Source: Nostoc sp. 106C (GTDB lineage Bacteria > Cyanobacteriota > Cyanobacteriia > Cyanobacteriales > Nostocaceae). From it: DNA of 58,232 bases. Position 1 is the first letter of the stretch. Every line of letters starts with the position of its first letter. Shown here in pieces: positions 27,728 to 33,863 of this stretch. The position numbers and the translations under genes are program-made. The DNA lies in NCBI RefSeq assembly GCF_002154725.1, contig NZ_MTAW01000125.1, positions 1 through 58,232 of the forward strand, written 5' to 3'. Under the pieces are notes generated by a model that saw only the letters and a program-made list of their open reading frames with translations, had not been told where the DNA came from and did not search any database.

Positions 27728-28813
27728 ATGACCAATACTATTAGTAGTCGCGACAGGTTAAGTCCGCAGCCGCAAGAAAGTTTTGGCTTAATCTCTGCTC
27801 AGAGTGAGAGCGATGAAGGAAAACTGAATACTGACAGTAGTGTAACAGAGGCACAGTCAAAAGGGAGAGTTTCTCTGGGCGGATGGCGAATTGTTCATGC
27901 TAGCAATGGGCGTGTGCGCATCCGCGCTCAAGAGAGTTGCTTAGAATCTCGACTAGAGGCTATATCCCAATACCTAGAGCAACAGAATGGAGTCAAGGAA
28001 GCCATCGTCAATCAGCAGACAGGTAGTTTGGCAATTGTGTTTGATCCCAATCAGTTGCCGTTACCGCAGATATTGGAGAAATTAGAAGAATTTGGCATTA
28101 ATCTGATCTCTACTGATGAATCCAACATTAAGGCAGATCTGTTTGCAGAATGGAAATCTGTGGATTTTTGGAAACAGCAAACAATTTCCTTGATTCCCTT
28201 GATGACAGGGTTAGCAGTCACAGGCGGACTGGGGATCAGCGGTGTAGCATCAATTCCTGTCTATATGATTGCCGCAAATGCAACTCGTTGGGTAATTGGC
28301 TCTATAGAATCTGAAATTTCGGGAGCAGAAACAAGCACCAGCAAATCTACACAAGCCTCATCATTAGAAATAGACAGCAAATCAGCATCCTCTGACAAAA
28401 TTGCTTATAGTGTCGTCCATACAATTCCCGGACGGATTAGACTTCATCTGCCTCTAATCGCCAAAAATCAAGCTTATGGTAGACGACTAGAAAGGCAGCT
28501 GAAAACAGATGCTCAAGTGACCAGCGTGCGCATAAATTATAGTGCGGCATCGGTGGCGATCGCCTATCAGCCGAGTGAGATTAGCCTAGCGCATTGGGTA
28601 AAGTTGATGGAATTGGCTTTACAAACGCACCCGCCTAACAATCCCATCAAGACAACAGAACAGCAACCGCTTGCAGAACAAGTGATTCAGCCAACTGAAG
28701 TTCCTGAGGACAAAAGTCCAGAGATGTCAATATGGGCAAATATGAAGCCTAACGCCTTGTCTTATTGTTTAGCCTTTATGGCGAACTTTCCTTTAGGGAC
28801 ATTTCCAGAATGA
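27728..28813 (+). CDS. Two-module HMA_2-type protein, gene 1 of transport cluster
   Basis: This 361-residue protein contains two HMA_2-like (heavy-metal-associated-like ferredoxin fold) modules: about 50-135, opening IVHASNGRVRIR, and about 225-300, opening VVHTIPGRIRLHLP. Both lack the CxxC metal site of classical HMA domains and instead carry the Gly-Arg-x-Arg string. Between them a hydrophobic stretch (about 155-195, ISLIPLMTGLAVTGGLGISG and on) can form one or two membrane helices. Comparable modules occur in the next gene, in the P-type ATPase at 29630 and in the protein at 32465. Spacing to the next start is 14 bases, suggesting an operon. Function is unknown; it is probably an accessory to the ATPase. 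Confidence 0.82.
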   Translation: MTNTISSRDRLSPQPQESFGLISAQSESDEGKLNTDSSVTEAQSKGRVSLGGWRIVHASNGRVRIRAQESCLESRLEAISQYLEQQNGVKEAIVNQQTGSLAIVFDPNQLPLPQILEKLEEFGINLISTDESNIKADLFAEWKSVDFWKQQTISLIPLMTGLAVTGGLGISGVASIPVYMIAANATRWVIGSIESEISGAETSTSKSTQASSLEIDSKSASSDKIAYSVVHTIPGRIRLHLPLIAKNQAYGRRLERQLKTDAQVTSVRINYSAASVAIAYQPSEISLAHWVKLMELALQTHPPNNPIKTTEQQPLAEQVIQPTEVPEDKSPEMSIWANMKPNALSYCLAFMANFPLGTFPE

Positions 28814-28827
28814 GAAGGGAGGTAACA

Positions 28828-29523
28828 ATGAAGGGTGCAATATCGCAAATGGGAACTTACCCCAGCGAAAAATCTATTGAGAACCACAACCACGCTGCTA
28901 GGGAATTTTACAGCATTACTTATGCACTTCCCGGACAAGTAGGATTTTGTGTGCCCAGGATTACTGAAGATTTAAACTATCTCCAACGCCTGTTAGAGAT
29001 GATAGAAGCAGAACCTTGGGTAATTAGCCAGCAAGTGAATTACACTGCTGGGTCAATTGTCATTACCTACAAACCTGGGGTAATGTCAGATGTGGAAATG
29101 CGATCGCATTTGGCCGATCTGCTACAATCTGCAACAGATGCAGAAGTCGTAACAAAGCAAAAAACCAATTACCACCACCAGCCTCAGCCTGATAGTGAGA
29201 CTCACTCAACTGAGCAATATCCCAAAGTAGCCTATACCATTGCCCATGCAATTCCCGGACGGGTGCGGTTTCATGTACCGCGAATTGCCTCAGATCCCCA
29301 ATATGCTCAATCTTTAGAAGCTTTACTCAAAGCAGATCCGGCAGTAACCAGTGAGCGAGTGAATCGGAATGCGGCATCAATTGTGATTACCTATAAAACT
29401 GTCAAGGATTCTCACAAACGAATGCAAAACATCTGGGAAACAATCGTATCCCATTTAGCGAATCTGATTCAATCTGCTAGCGATCGCGCGATGTTGAACA
29501 AACACGCCTCTAGCAGAATTTGA
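28828..29523 (+). CDS. Two-module HMA_2-type soluble protein, gene 2 of cluster
   Basis: This 231-residue protein has two HMA_2-like modules, about 20-95 (ITYALPGQVGFCVP) and about 130-200 (IAHAIPGRVRFHVP), with no transmembrane segment and no CxxC. In the first module the normally basic Gly-Arg-x-Arg is replaced by Gly-Gln-x-Gly and a lone Cys appears (GFCVP), so this module may have lost or changed its ligand. The His-rich linker (YHHQPQPDSETH) is notable. ATG at 28828 follows AAGGGAGG by 6 bases, which decides the start. The resemblance of repeats among neighbours suggests duplication within the cluster. Confidence 0.82.
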   Translation: MKGAISQMGTYPSEKSIENHNHAAREFYSITYALPGQVGFCVPRITEDLNYLQRLLEMIEAEPWVISQQVNYTAGSIVITYKPGVMSDVEMRSHLADLLQSATDAEVVTKQKTNYHHQPQPDSETHSTEQYPKVAYTIAHAIPGRVRFHVPRIASDPQYAQSLEALLKADPAVTSERVNRNAASIVITYKTVKDSHKRMQNIWETIVSHLANLIQSASDRAMLNKHASSRI

Positions 29524-29629
29524 CACAGAAAAATAACCATCAGCCAACCAATTTCATCAGATTGGGGGCTATTTTGCTCTTTTAAGTCAGAGTCATCAAG
29601 TTTCATCAACTCTATCTGAGAGACAAGGA

Positions 29630-31933
29630 ATGGTAAAACCAAGGGTTCAATTAGCATCACCGCCTACGCCAATAGTGCCTGAGATTGTCGAGAAGCATCA
29701 CGAGAACGTTGCTTTAGTCAAAGAACAGAATGGAAAAGTTACGTTCACCGACAACAACGGACACAACCGCAGACAGATTACCCAAGTTGCTTACAGCATT
29801 GTTCATGTAACACGAGGAAGGATACGGTTTCGCGTGCCTCGGTTACGTCACGATCGAGACTATGCTCAACGTCTCCAAGCATTATTAGAAGCTGATTCCT
29901 TAGTTATAAGTGCGCGGATCAAGCCAGCGGCGGCGTCGCTAGTTGTGACTTATCAACCTAGACAAATGTCAGAGTCCAAGATGCGATCGCATTTGATTCA
30001 TCTAATCTTAACTGCTAGCGATCCGACAATAGTCATTACAGTTGTTAATAAACCAGCGATTACGCAACCACCAACCGATACAGAAAATTCTTGGCCTGGT
30101 TTACAACTTTCTGCTGTCGCTACTGGTTTAGCGGTGCTGGGGGGACCGTTAGGATTATCAATTCCACCAATTATGGTAGCGGGGACTATTGCTCTAGCAA
30201 CCTTACCAGTTTTTCAAAGAGCATTAGTAGGAATTACGACACAGCGCAAACTCACGATCGACTTTTTGGATTTAATGGCGATCGCTATTACTACCGTCCA
30301 AGGTCATTTTCTTACGCCATCACTGATGCTGAGTTTAATTGAAATTGGCGAGAACATTCGCGATCGCACTGCTCGTTCTTCCAAACTCCAAACTTTGGAT
30401 TTACTCAATTCTCTAGGGCAGTTTGTTTGGGTAGAACGTAATGGCGAGAAACAACAAATCCCTATCCAAGATGTACTGCGAGGCGATACAGTTATTGTCT
30501 ATCCTGGCGAGCAAGTCCCAGTAGATGGTACTATCCTGCGGGGTAAGGCTCTGCTGGATGAGCAAAAACTCACCGGTGAATCCATGCCAGTCTTGAAAAA
30601 GAAGGGACAAGCGGTTTTTGCTTCTACCTTAGTACGCGAGGGACGAATTTATATTCAAGCTGAATGGGTAGGCAATGATACTCGTGCTGGACAGAGTATT
30701 AAATTAATCCAAGAAGCACCTGTCCATGATACGCGCATGGAAAACTATGCGACAAAAATAGCTGAAAGAGCAGTGGTGCCAACTTTGCTACTAGGAGCAG
30801 CAGTATTTGCCGCAACTCGTAACCCAATACGGGCAGCTAGTGTACTGACTCTAGACTTTGCTACAGGTATTCGAGTATCTGTACCAACTACAGTTTTAGC
30901 AGCACTTACCTATGCAGCCAAGCACGGTATTCTCATCCGTAGCGGACGGGCATTAGAACAGCTAGCCGCAGTTGACACGATTGTGTTTGATAAAACAGGC
31001 ACCCTAACTAAAGGAGAAGTGACTGTTATTGGTGTGGAAAGTCTCAATCCAGCAACATCAACTACGCGGGTACTGGAATTAGCAGCAGCAGCAGAACAAC
31101 GACTGACGCACCCAGTAGCCGAAGCCATCATTCGCTATGCCGAAGCTAAGAAAGTGATAATTCCCAACCGCCAGAAATGGAACTATCAACTCGGTTTGGG
31201 AGTGCAAGCAGAAATTGACGGCGAGACGGTTTACGTAGGTAGCGATCGCTTTTTACGCCAGCAAGGCATTGAAATGGCACAGCAAAATGGCCATTCCAAG
31301 CGCTCAGCTTCAATGATTTATGTAGCTAGCAACGGTCAACTTCAAGGTAAAATCAAATATAGTGACATTCTACGTAAAGAAAGTCGGCAAGTAATTAGCC
31401 AGTTATTGACAGTCGAAGGTGTAGAAGTTCATATGCTCACCGGAGACAATAGGCAAACAGCCAATACAGTGGCAGCAGAACTAGGGATACCACCGACAAA
31501 TACTCATGCCGAAGCTTTTCCCGAACAGAAAGCCGCAGTTGTGCGTGCACTACACGAACAAGGTAAGACAGTGGCATTTGTGGGGGATGGGATTAATGAT
31601 TCGCCAGCTTTAGCCTACGCTGATGTTTCCGTATCCTTTGCCAATGGTTCGGAAATTGCCCGCGAAACCGCAGACGTGGTGCTGATGGAGAATAATTTGC
31701 ATGGTTTATTAGAAGCGATCGCGATCGCGCGTCAAGCCAAGCAATTAATTAACCAAAATACAGGTATTGTCGCTGTTCCTAACTTAGGAGCATTGTTCAT
31801 AGCCGTTATTTTTGGTTTAAATCCCCTAGCTGCAACCGTAGTCAACAACGGTTCAACCGTAGTCGCAGGCATCAACGGTTTGCGCCCAATTTTAAAACAT
31901 TCACCAAAGAAAGCTCTACCATCGGCAAGATGA
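29630..31933 (+). CDS. P1B-like P-type ATPase with N-terminal HMA_2 module, atypical TM6
   Basis: This 767-residue integral membrane ATPase has an N-terminal HMA_2-like module (about 48-125, IVHVTRGRIRFRVP), membrane helices, and an actuator domain with TGES (315-318). The phosphorylation site is Asp454 in DKTGTLTKGE. The P1B-specific His494-Pro495 (LTHPVAEA), MLTGDN and GDGIND (652-657) are all intact, so ATP hydrolysis should work. The helix before the P domain, where metal pumps have CPC or a Cys-containing variant, reads LDFATGIRVSVP (Asp409-Thr412), with no cysteine. Cd/Zn/Cu-type coordination is therefore unlikely and the substrate is unknown. It is flanked by HMA_2 and DUF5132 genes, inferred to be accessory subunits. 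Confidence 0.9.
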   Translation: MVKPRVQLASPPTPIVPEIVEKHHENVALVKEQNGKVTFTDNNGHNRRQITQVAYSIVHVTRGRIRFRVPRLRHDRDYAQRLQALLEADSLVISARIKPAAASLVVTYQPRQMSESKMRSHLIHLILTASDPTIVITVVNKPAITQPPTDTENSWPGLQLSAVATGLAVLGGPLGLSIPPIMVAGTIALATLPVFQRALVGITTQRKLTIDFLDLMAIAITTVQGHFLTPSLMLSLIEIGENIRDRTARSSKLQTLDLLNSLGQFVWVERNGEKQQIPIQDVLRGDTVIVYPGEQVPVDGTILRGKALLDEQKLTGESMPVLKKKGQAVFASTLVREGRIYIQAEWVGNDTRAGQSIKLIQEAPVHDTRMENYATKIAERAVVPTLLLGAAVFAATRNPIRAASVLTLDFATGIRVSVPTTVLAALTYAAKHGILIRSGRALEQLAAVDTIVFDKTGTLTKGEVTVIGVESLNPATSTTRVLELAAAAEQRLTHPVAEAIIRYAEAKKVIIPNRQKWNYQLGLGVQAEIDGETVYVGSDRFLRQQGIEMAQQNGHSKRSASMIYVASNGQLQGKIKYSDILRKESRQVISQLLTVEGVEVHMLTGDNRQTANTVAAELGIPPTNTHAEAFPEQKAAVVRALHEQGKTVAFVGDGINDSPALAYADVSVSFANGSEIARETADVVLMENNLHGLLEAIAIARQAKQLINQNTGIVAVPNLGALFIAVIFGLNPLAATVVNNGSTVVAGINGLRPILKHSPKKALPSAR

Positions 31934-32006
31934 AGTGAATATGCCGATTAATTTAGGCTAGAACGCTTTCCTACAAGTTTCCACTTTACCAGAGGTATAT
32001 TTAACT

Positions 32007-32315
32007 ATGGCACCTAAAATCACTGACTTTGTTGAAGACGCTGGCGCTCCCGGAATTATAGCCGGTATTGGAGCAGTATTGCTGGCACCCGTCCTCCTTC
32101 CTGTAGTAGCAGGAATTGGTAAACCATTAGCCAAATCATTAATTAAAGGCGGAATTCTTGCTTATGAAAAGAGCAAAGGAGCCTTTGCTGAACTTGGTGA
32201 AACCTGGGAAGATATGGTAGCTGAAGCACGAGCAGAAATTGCTGAAGATAGAGAAACACCAGCATTTGAAGCTGCTAGCACTCCGGGCGATCGCACTTTG
32301 GATAATGGTGGCTAA
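32007..32315 (+). CDS. DUF5132 small membrane protein
   Basis: This 102-residue DUF5132-type protein has an N-terminal Gly/Ala/Val/Pro-rich hydrophobic segment (about 14-50, IIAGIGAVLLAPVLLPVVAG), then KSLIKGGILAYEKSKGAFAE. An acidic/alanine-rich amphipathic helix follows (EDMVAEARAEIAED), then a disordered tail. The layout (one hydrophobic helix followed by a Glu/Ala helix) resembles mycobacterial PacL/DUF1490 proteins, which scaffold P-type ATPases in the membrane. The terminal His/Asp metal motif of PacL is absent. Immediately downstream of the ATPase and closed by a terminator at 32328-32349. Partner role is inferred from position and layout. Confidence 0.82.
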   Translation: MAPKITDFVEDAGAPGIIAGIGAVLLAPVLLPVVAGIGKPLAKSLIKGGILAYEKSKGAFAELGETWEDMVAEARAEIAEDRETPAFEAASTPGDRTLDNGG

Positions 32316-32327
32316 ATCTGTAAGTAG

Positions 32328-32349
32328 AGGCGCGGCGATCGCGCCTTTT
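32328..32349 (+). terminator. Intrinsic terminator after DUF5132 gene
   Basis: A 7-bp GC-rich stem (32328-32334 with 32340-32346, AGGCGCG/CGCGCCT) with a 5-nt loop is followed by U residues (32346-32349). The loop and right arm contain the HIP1 octamer GCGATCGC. It separates the four-gene run 27728-32315 from the HMA_2 gene at 32465. Confidence 0.8.
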
Positions 32350-32359
32350 ATGAAAATTA

Positions 32360-32424
32360 AACCATAGATGAACACAGATAAACACCGATTAGTTATCTGT
32401 GTGCATCTGTGTTTATCTGTGGTT
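32360..32424. repeat. Dispersed palindromic repeat, 65 bp
   Basis: The left arm 32360-32379 and right arm 32405-32424 are complementary except for two positions (consensus AACCACAGATAAACACAGAT). Another arm-like copy is at 26973-26992. Non-coding; typical of cyanobacterial intergenic palindromes. Confidence 0.75.
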
Positions 32425-32464
32425 CCCAATAATAACTATAGGTAAATTCGTAGGAGGGTAGTTT

Positions 32465-33055
32465 GTGAGTACAAATAATTATGGATATCTCACCCAAATG
32501 CCGCAAGTAATAGAGCAAACAGCTATAAATACTCAATCTAAACTTATACCTACAAAAATAATTAGTGATACTCCAGGGCGATTGAGGCTGAGAATTGCAC
32601 CAGGCGATCGCCAAGCTGGGAAAATGCAAAAAATTGCCAATTTACTAGAAGCACAACCTAACGTTAGTCAAGTAAGAACCAATATTGATCGCGGTAGTAT
32701 TCTCATCAATCATGATCGCGGTGATGACAGTTTAGAAAACGTCCTAAGTACACTCAAGGATATAGGAATTATTTTTGGCGATATTAGTGAGGGTAGTACT
32801 GAAGCATCCGCAGGTGTCTCAAATGCAGTAGTTGATTTAAATAAACGAGTACAACAAGCAACAAACGGTGCTATGGATCTGCGCTTTTTGTTTCCCTTAG
32901 GGCTGAGTATCTTGTCTGTGAGGCAATTGCTCATTAAAGGTCTGCAATTTGAAACTATTCCTTGGTACGTTTTGGCCTGGTATGCCTTCGATAGTTTTAT
33001 CAAATTGAATACTAACAGACAACCACAAACCAACAGCGAGTATGGGAAATCTTAA
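32465..33055 (+). CDS. Single-module HMA_2-type membrane protein, last gene of cluster
   Basis: This 196-residue protein has an HMA_2-like module at about 30-105 (IISDTPGRLRLRIAPGDR), again without CxxC, then an acidic linker. A C-terminal region follows with one or two membrane helices (about 140-185, FLFPLGLSILSVRQLLI and PWYVLAWYAFDSFI). The start is GTG at 32465 with a strong AGGAGGGT site. It follows the terminator and a dispersed repeat, so it may have its own promoter, yet it clearly belongs with the preceding HMA_2 genes. Similar HMA_2 plus C-terminal-helix proteins accompany P-type ATPases in other bacteria. Function unknown. Confidence 0.8.
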   Translation: MSTNNYGYLTQMPQVIEQTAINTQSKLIPTKIISDTPGRLRLRIAPGDRQAGKMQKIANLLEAQPNVSQVRTNIDRGSILINHDRGDDSLENVLSTLKDIGIIFGDISEGSTEASAGVSNAVVDLNKRVQQATNGAMDLRFLFPLGLSILSVRQLLIKGLQFETIPWYVLAWYAFDSFIKLNTNRQPQTNSEYGKS

Positions 33056-33096: not shown

Positions 33097-33489
33097 TCAA
33101 GGAATAAACAACCGACCAACTCCCATGTAGTTGTCAATATCTAGGATAATCTCGATCAAGCGCTCAACACATAGCTCTCGATATTCAAACTCATCCAAGC
33201 GTTTAAGATCCCCGATTGTAACTACAGGAAACGAATCTGTTGTATTCTCCTCCCGCATTACTTGTTCTAAGGATTCCTCACCTTTCATGTTCCGATTTGC
33301 GGTAAGGATCATCATTTGGTTGGCTTGAGCATAATGCCAGACAATGCTATCGCTACTATCCATTGATAAACCAGCATCTCGAAAGGTAACGAAACGGACA
33401 TTTATCAAATCAAGCCAACCCGCCTTTGCCAAAATTCCCAGGAAAATAAGCGCATATCCGTCAAGATTGTAATCAACTAAGAAGGTCAT
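33097..33489 (-). CDS. PIN-like/DUF5615-type putative toxin
   Basis: This 130-residue protein begins TFLVDYNLDG with an acidic residue at position 6 as in PIN/Mut7-C-like nucleases. It continues SSDSIVWHYAQANQMMILTANRNMKGEESLE, the second acidic cluster typical of these small proteins. They usually pair with a DUF433 gene; here the DUF433 gene ends four bases inside this start (shared ATGA), showing translational coupling. A ribonuclease-toxin role is inferred from fold and pairing, not shown. It is on the opposite strand to the HMA_2 cluster, with convergent ends about 40 bases apart. Confidence 0.72.
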   Translation of the reverse strand: MTFLVDYNLDGYALIFLGILAKAGWLDLINVRFVTFRDAGLSMDSSDSIVWHYAQANQMMILTANRNMKGEESLEQVMREENTTDSFPVVTIGDLKRLDEFEYRELCVERLIEIILDIDNYMGVGRLFIP

Positions 33490-33863
33490 GGCTTGTCCGA
33501 AGCATGTTTGGCTTTTTGCTCCTCAAGCTTTGCCCACAGAGTTTCTTGTCCAGGTTTGCGTGGCATTGTTGCGATGCAAGCAAAATGTTCGCGGTTACGC
33601 TCTTCCCAATACTGACGAATTTCTTCTCTAGTTTGCAACACTTCTTGATATTCAGCTTCTACCTGAGTAGAATTTGCTTTGATATAAGACAGAGCAGCGT
33701 TAATTTGTTCATCTGTAAGATTAAATTTGTCACGAATTAATTTAGGTGGATACTGAGCTTTCAGAAAATCCATCACATCATAAATAGTGATGCGTGTACC
33801 TGCGATCGTCAGTCCACGTTCTGTACGAATGATGCCTGTTTGTGCATTCGATGCCAGAGTCAT
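33486..33863 (-). CDS. DUF433 protein, putative antitoxin
   Basis: This 125-residue protein has a DUF433 (VapB45-like) winged-helix core at residues 10-65 (IIRTERGLTIAGTRITIYDVMDFLKAQ, FNLTDEQINAALSYI). A charged helical tail (about 70-125) probably wraps the partner. It is upstream of and overlaps by 4 bp the PIN-like gene, so the two are one transcription unit. DUF433 antitoxins usually repress their own promoter. ATG at 33863 is preceded by AGGAGGTAAAGGT, a strong ribosome site. Confidence 0.82.
   Translation of the reverse strand: MTLASNAQTGIIRTERGLTIAGTRITIYDVMDFLKAQYPPKLIRDKFNLTDEQINAALSYIKANSTQVEAEYQEVLQTREEIRQYWEERNREHFACIATMPRKPGQETLWAKLEEQKAKHASDKP

Follow-up and report, generated by a model that had tools for sequence, protein, structure and literature searches.

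What is moved, and to where, by a gene set that combines a P-type ATPase with six HMA_2 modules, none of which carries a CxxC motif? The question is raised by five genes (here A to E) on the forward strand of contig NZ_MTAW01000125.1 of the cyanobacterium Nostoc sp. 106C (assembly GCF_002154725.1; genome of 8.66 Mb), at positions 27728–33055 of the window, that is, of the 58,232-nucleotide stretch of DNA that was analysed. We propose, with a probability of about 0.5, that the five genes encode a cyanobacterial version of the ferrosome: a membrane assembly by which Fe(II) is brought into a membrane-bound store. The observations behind this proposal are the gene set itself, its co-occurrence in other genomes, the kinship of the ATPase, the missing thiols and the linkage to iron genes in relatives; from them we infer the substrate, the direction of transport, the role of a scaffold, the role of the arginines and any compartment.

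Five genes with six HMA_2 modules

Gene A (27728–28813, 361 aa) contains two HMA_2 modules, opening with GRVR (residues 61–64) and GRIR (residues 235–238) and separated by a stretch that is hydrophobic as judged by eye. Two further modules (GQVG, GRVR) are found in gene B (28828–29523, about 231 aa), for which the ATG at 28828 was picked by eye, 3' of a ribosome-binding-like string; the mechanical open reading frame (ORF) begins at 28765. Gene C (29630–31933) encodes a P1B-type ATPase of 767 aa with an N-terminal HMA_2 module (GRIR) and no cysteine. It is followed by gene D (32007–32315), a DUF5132 protein of 102 aa in which a hydrophobic segment is combined with a Glu/Ala-rich helix, and by gene E (32465–33055, 196 aa, GTG start), in which an HMA_2 module (GRLR) precedes a conserved C-terminal membrane hairpin (IPWYVLAWYAFDSFIK). 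Pfam finds HMA_2 in genes A (two stretches), B (two), C (one) and E, and DUF5132 in gene D (67.4 bits). The module of gene C scores 29.7 bits per protein, barely below the 30-bit cut-off, and 32 bits in a genome search, and the first module of gene A, taken alone, reaches 23.7 bits, below the cut-off. An earlier note on this DNA had described five same-strand genes with six modules, five of them with GRxR, one with GQxG and none with CxxC; ORFs, Pfam and the protein sequences confirm this. CxxC is absent from all five proteins, A to E, which have 2, 1, 0, 0 and 0 cysteines, respectively.

Conservation of the gene set

Relatives of the ATPase (E≤1e-100) are present in 23 of 58 genomes, Nostoc sp. 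106C included, and the order HMA_2 gene(s)–ATPase–DUF5132–HMA_2 is kept in 18 of the 28 relative regions that were fetched. When 146 cyanobacterial genomes were drawn evenly, DUF5132 and HMA_2 each turned up in 25, and these are the identical 25 genomes; by hand count, 26 of 34 DUF5132 matches have an HMA_2 match no more than 6 kb away. The earlier note had pictured a dedicated membrane complex for something other than a thiol-bound metal and had made this picture depend on conserved linkage elsewhere. The linkage is there, in 18 regions and 25 shared genomes, and together with the missing thiols it supports a dedicated, conserved membrane gene set that works without thiols.

A cysteine-free ion site in the ATPase

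Gene C matches the TIGR01525 profile with 516.6 bits (cut-off 346.25) and has the catalytic core, with an intact DKTGT phosphorylation site (residues 454–458, 30989–31003), TGES and HP; the core motifs and the profile score place it among P1B-type ATPases. What the earlier note had overlooked is the loss of the CPC motif from the ion site itself. In transmembrane helix 4 (TM4), the string of gene C is LDFATGIRVSVPT, with LDFATGIR (residues 408–415, 30851–30874) at the CPC region. The aligned segment reads ACPCALGLATP in CopA-like pumps, ADYSCALKLATP or similar in Azospirillum, Arcobacter and Vibrio, and IDYACPVKLTTP in Cereibacter. In this alignment an Asp is found ahead of the CPC position, with a Lys or Arg following. 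The motifs form a series from CPC through DYSC..K to DFAT..R. The last cysteine of the site is gone in the cyanobacterial sequences, a few of which carry a cysteine one residue away (LDLCTGIR). A non-CPC TM4 with flanking Asp and Lys/Arg is thus present in gene C (LDFATGIR, compared with ADYSCALK), a P1B-6 feature that is our own reading of the aligned FezB-like sequences and not a published definition.

Asp409 of TM4 is invariant across 17 aligned HMA_2-ATPases of several phyla. In an AlphaFold model of gene C, built with 17 sequences (predicted local distance difference test, pLDDT, 78; predicted template modelling score, pTM, 0.64), the TM4 helix is interrupted between residues 407 and 411, around Asp409; P-type pumps bind their ion at the TM4 helix break (PMC10654040). 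In TM6, gene C has Asn739-Asn740-Gly (NNGS; the two Asn at 31844–31849) instead of His-Asn, which PMC9374683 names as a P1B-6 feature, and we therefore file gene C as P1B-6-like and not as P1B-6. His-Asn-Gly is found in TM6 of many cyanobacterial sister sequences.

We also considered an ordinary Cu/Zn/Cd exporter. It is not our first choice, given that gene C has no CPC and no cysteine at all and stands apart from the CopA/CopB-like sequences, in a tree that holds no proven Zn/Cd pump.

Two side observations concern the ATPase family. At loci L063 and L064 HMA_2-ATPases occur in pairs, one member of each with a His in the site (LDFSHSIR), near universal-stress-protein genes (one of them, at L064, identified by Pfam), with a P2-type ATPase further along. 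In Gloeothece verrucosa PCC 7822 (L071:11825-13393) a 522-aa HMA_2 protein near DUF5132 resembles a pump without catalytic parts: DKTGT, TGES and GDG are all missing from it, and Pfam detects no ATPase domain. The ATPase and DUF5132 of this strain are carried by a plasmid.

Kinship with ferrosome-like clusters

A midpoint-rooted tree was calculated from 38 P1B ATPases, leaving out P2-type and KdpB sequences and the truncated L065. The 24 cyanobacterial sequences group together (support 100/99) and are joined by Deinococcus (99/95) and Methylobacterium (100/98), next by FezB-like sequences from Cereibacter, Vibrio, Azospirillum and Arcobacter (100/98), then by Priestia (97/91) and next by a CPC-bearing Rhodococcus pump linked to DUF1490 (100/96). 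CopA/CopB-like, Haladaptatus and Manganitrophus sequences fall outside this clade. Several branches are long, and the exact branching order may be unsure. A non-CPC ATPase occurs in at least 20 loci, among the 80 named loci listed. A tblastn search of plasmids with the ATPase reached 4435 records, 57 of them covering 80% of the query at a single place, and 12 regions were read.

Ferrosome fez clusters are described for Desulfovibrio magneticus, Rhodopseudomonas palustris and Clostridioides difficile; R. palustris CGA009 is reported to have six fez genes (RPA2333-2338), FezA and FezB are described for C. difficile, and FezC is a DUF4405-like cytochrome with heme histidines (PMC11334425). The Azospirillum cluster consists of six overlapping or adjoining genes, two for HMA_2 proteins, three for small proteins and one for the ATPase. 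FezB itself we take to be a P1B-6 ATPase, and fez operons alone reportedly suffice for ferrosome formation. The Nostoc operon shares with fez clusters an HMA_2-bearing, non-CPC P1B pump that falls in one clade with the FezB-like sequences (a label given by gene content), HMA_2 proteins, small membrane proteins and, in many relatives, iron genes nearby. It differs from them in the ion site, the fez-like sequences having DYSCALK and HN where the cysteine-free pump of the window has DFATGIR and NN, in the DUF5132 gene downstream of the ATPase, in a membrane hairpin of the HMA_2 protein without a histidine pair, and in a genome without FeoB. At E≤0.1, DUF4405 matches none of the five genes. The earlier note knew of no assigned function for this gene set; a lack of known kin is not supported, since the ATPase groups with P1B-6-like HMA_2-ATPases of ferrosome-like clusters and the context of the relatives points to iron.

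Iron genes near the relatives

FeoB_C was searched for in 44 genomes chosen for the ATPase, HMA_2 or DUF5132, 28 of which have FeoB above the cut-off, and all TIGR01525 matches at E≤1e-90 in those 28 genomes were used for comparison. A FeoB gene is found 10 kb or less away from 15 of the 36 HMA_2-ATPases, but from none of the 88 remaining P1B-type matches (Fisher P 7e-10; chance expectations 0.20 and 0.44, respectively), counts that are not independent, the 15 linked ATPases corresponding to 13 FeoB sites in nine genera. Because none of the 88 others is near FeoB, the linkage is not a general trait of P1B pumps. These 88 include two partial, uninspected matches (G013:C549, G036:C23) and 11 below 350 bits, which we regard as fragments or as pumps of the KdpB type. 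Among the 36, the sequence of G041:C52 ends short of its HMA_2 module. A fragmentary FeoB match of genome G005 was excluded (35 of 36 used), two unclear matches of G130 were kept apart, and a FeoB at 10.5 kb in G036 was scored as a miss.

Single loci give the same direction. In genome G123 (L124) an operon in full order, flanked by dhaK as in the window, has FeoA and FeoB immediately upstream. Ferritin or DUF2202 genes are found beside the ATPase at L059, L113 and L123. Outside the cyanobacteria, FeoB is present in the kin clusters L147, L149 and L153 (Pfam-confirmed for L147), the Cereibacter cluster has FeoA and TonB receptors, and DUF2202-like proteins occur in L147, L153 and Arcobacter; the Arcobacter label is the depositor's, with a sub-cut-off Pfam match only (E 0.0024; none at 0.001). 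The fez-like cluster of Arcobacter also encodes a small protein (L075:7295-7645) that weakly matches the magnetosome protein MamC (E 9.4e-7; 29.1 bits, cut-off 100).

DUF5132 as a candidate scaffold

A profile built from 30 cyanobacterial DUF5132 proteins was searched against 5022 ORFs. These came from 87 loci, of which 27 contain a non-CPC ATPase and 60 contain CPx pumps alone. At E≤1 it matched 15 ORFs, in 12 of the 27 non-CPC loci and in none of the 60 CPx loci (p 1e-7). The matches in other phyla are small membrane proteins, mostly directly beside the ATPase. A small membrane partner next to the pump, as in fez clusters, is thus present in these 12 loci, and it may correspond to FezA. The Pfam model of DUF5132 gives E 0.0045 for L074 and 0.023 for L146, both below its cut-off. 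A search for DUF5132 on plasmids gave no match, there was none among solved structures at E≤1, and the name was not found in the literature searched.

A comparison is offered by the mycobacterial effluxosome, in which PacL/DUF1490 proteins (and DUF6110) accompany CtpC-type, P1B6-like ATPases. PMC9374683 and PMC13043812 describe efflux platforms formed by small scaffold proteins that have a transmembrane segment and a Glu/Ala part and are encoded together with P1B6-like pumps, PacL stabilising and clustering the pumps. The layout of gene D, judged by eye, is similar: a transmembrane helix, a Glu/Ala-rich cytoplasmic helix and an operon shared with a P1B pump. In addition, the Rhodococcus pump linked to DUF1490 carries GRIR and LHN, and its branch is adjacent to the HMA_2 clade. 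Differences are that DUF1490-linked pumps keep CPC whereas the pump of the window has none, and that PacL ends in a C-terminal metal-binding motif whereas gene D (0 His, 0 Cys) has no such motif. Homology of DUF5132 to PacL was tried and rejected; the layouts are alike, but the sequence link is too weak (hhalign 10.8% over a short stretch against DUF1490), and DUF1490 was not among the matches of the 30 DUF5132 proteins up to E 10.

On a third contig of the Nostoc sp. 106C genome (L069:8155-14260), two DUF5132 genes, the first of which scores below the Pfam cut-off, flank a P2-type ATPase in which no HMA_2 was detected; other ORFs are interspersed.

HMA_2 modules and their arginine string

Among 195 HMA_2 modules collected from 78 loci, GRxR is present in 160 and a CxxC within the first 30 aligned residues in one. 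The two arginines are conserved in 95% and 94% of the 188–189 modules with letters at these positions, shares that are biased upwards because the collecting profile itself carries the motif. In gene C the string reads GRIRFR (residues 63–68, 29816–29833), and His59, Arg64 and Arg66 are invariant across the 17 aligned HMA_2-ATPases. As the earlier note suggested, such strings may contact phosphate, lipid head groups or the ATPase.

Like the classical HMA domain (PF00403; CopZ, MerP, the PacS N-domain), the modules are predicted to be ferredoxin-like: in the models built for gene E and for the module of the ATPase, strands and helices follow one another as in that fold, and the Arg string lies in the first strand, which is kinked. 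The model quality is moderate (gene E: pLDDT 66.4, pTM 0.45, 8 sequences), and for this reason we do not argue from side-chain geometry in the ATPase or in gene E. When gene E and its kin are combined into a sequence profile, HMA chains of the PDB are matched with a best E value of 9.8e-14, whereas a fold search against the PDB gave no match at E 0.001 or better, MerP (E 0.016) and PacS (E 0.08) ranking below three unrelated proteins. The classical domain has a CxxC loop; the modules of the window have no CxxC, and five of the six carry Gly-Arg-x-Arg. The profile alignments start just behind that loop, and a one-for-one exchange of CxxC for GRxR is not claimed.

HMA_2 occurs in other settings as well. 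Fusions to a PAP2 phosphatase are found in four genomes (L068, by Pfam; L226, L227 and L228, by sequence similarity); the one at L068, on a second contig of the Nostoc sp. 106C genome, adjoins another HMA_2 gene (L068:473-1459 and 1627-2295). An HMA_2-like module with GRAR or GRGR also stands at the N-terminus of P2-type cation ATPases of about 1000 aa at L106, L107, L109, L121, L229 and L230 (type assigned by Pfam for L106 and L107, by a PEGLP motif for the other four). All six adjoin metK, and all but L229, where none was found, adjoin DUF5132.

Storage, efflux and other readings

In the reading that we favour, the pump encoded by gene C would carry Fe(II) from the cytosol into a membrane-bound store, its ion site being formed by Asp409 in TM4 and Asn739/Asn740 in TM6 in place of cysteines, which would suit a harder ion such as Fe(II). 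Gene D would sit in the membrane and, by analogy with PacL, use its cytoplasmic helix, rich in Glu and Ala, to cluster and stabilise the pump. Proteins A, B and E, which share the pump's own HMA_2 module, may be docking partners, and the Arg-lined strand would then serve as a docking or anion-binding surface rather than a thiol site for metal transfer. A more elaborate version, which we consider unlikely, has a ferrosome-like compartment in which the cysteine-free pump loads Fe(II), DUF5132 acts as membrane scaffold, and the HMA_2 modules, lined with Arg, bind phosphate or polyphosphate, helping to form or retain an iron-phosphate store; if true, the HMA fold would here be used for an anion instead of a metal.

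Several observations weigh against iron storage. The Nostoc genome itself yields no FeoB_C match, no iron-looking neighbour is seen by eye beside the operon, FeoB is present in none of the fetched stretches of the 14 def-flanked loci, the window included, and among full-order loci it occurs only at L056 and L124. It is because no def-flanked locus has FeoB nearby that our estimate was lowered to one half. The full gene order is absent from 10 of the 28 fetched regions, 8 of the 34 DUF5132 matches are not near HMA_2, several matches to the DUF5132 profile are weak (E 0.0009–0.04), and HMA_2 and DUF5132 also accompany P2-type ATPases. To these points may be added the shared FeoB sites and the Asn-Asn pair in TM6. 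The fez-like label reflects gene content only, in a comparison that includes no proven fez operon or FezB sequence. Finally, the hairpin of gene E, though strongly conserved in the aligned orthologues, has no histidine pair in gene E or in any of these orthologues. Some fez-like loci, among them L074, L152, L161 and L075, do have paired histidines in their hairpins, which by eye resemble the FezC cytochrome described in PMC11334425. Because the two histidines are missing from gene E, the system of the window probably lacks a heme step.

The main rival to storage is an Fe(II) efflux platform at one of the cell's membranes, without any storage compartment, in which DUF5132 would cluster the pump as PacL clusters CtpC and the pump would rid the cell of surplus Fe(II). 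We regard it as possible, if on balance unlikely. The PacL-type scaffolds co-encoded with P1B6-like pumps (PMC9374683, PMC13043812), the same layout of DUF5132 and the iron linkage in relatives speak for it; the sequence kinship between DUF5132 and DUF1490 is, however, limited to the short stretch mentioned above, and FeoB, an uptake protein, beside the pump fits storage at least equally well. If the Feo neighbours merely mark general metal islands, the pump could serve a different ion of hard or borderline character (Mn, Zn, Co or Mg). This appears quite unlikely to us. In its favour, the DUF1490-linked relative CtpC gives zinc resistance (PMC9374683), a Deinococcus relative lies about 6 kb from genes for a metal-dependent regulator and a metal ABC transporter, and the Nostoc genome is without FeoB; against it, CPC is kept in the DUF1490-linked pumps and lost in the clade of the window, and the 88 other P1B-type matches in the same genomes are never near FeoB.

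Very unlikely, in our view, is that no metal pump is involved and that HMA_2 and DUF5132 form a general adaptor for membrane enzymes handling phosphate, lipids or polyamines, with the ATPase as one client. Such an adaptor would account for the HMA_2-PAP2 fusions (L068, L226–L228) and for the HMA_2-bearing P2-type ATPases beside DUF5132 and metK (L106, L107, L109, L121, L230). Yet the core of gene C is of the P1B type, its 516.6 bits for TIGR01525 comparing with 115.8 for the polyamine model TIGR01657 and 29.6 for the phospholipid model TIGR01652, and the P2-type clients are likewise of cation-ATPase types.

On our best reading of the sequences, what appears to be new is a DUF5132-bearing cyanobacterial branch of P1B-6-like, ferrosome-type clusters with, in the window, a cysteine-free pump. 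No cyanobacterial ferrosome or efflux platform was found described in the literature searched; the main ferrosome papers lie outside it and may list cyanobacteria. Oxygenic phototrophs have a high iron demand, and iron storage by such an assembly predicts a store in these organisms, which is a testable idea. DUF5132 and HMA_2, both orphan families, would gain a shared testable setting, that of scaffolds and P-type pumps with iron-gene neighbours, and research on ferrosomes and on PacL would be joined through one ATPase clade. The pumps also show that P1B ion sites vary in a natural series, with CPC at one end, DYSC in between and a site without any cysteine at the other.

Genomic surroundings

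In the closest group the block stands between def and dhaK, near dnaA. Among 30 regions, the window included, the recurring neighbours (identified by Pfam) are def in 14, dnaA in 11 and dhaK in 11; htrA also recurs beside the operon, and dnaN lies further off. We read dnaA, htrA, def and dhaK as marks of a stable chromosomal place and not as a clue to function. Directly behind the operon, on the reverse strand at 33097–33863, two small overlapping genes match DUF5615 and DUF433, a pairing that we take to be toxin-antitoxin-like.

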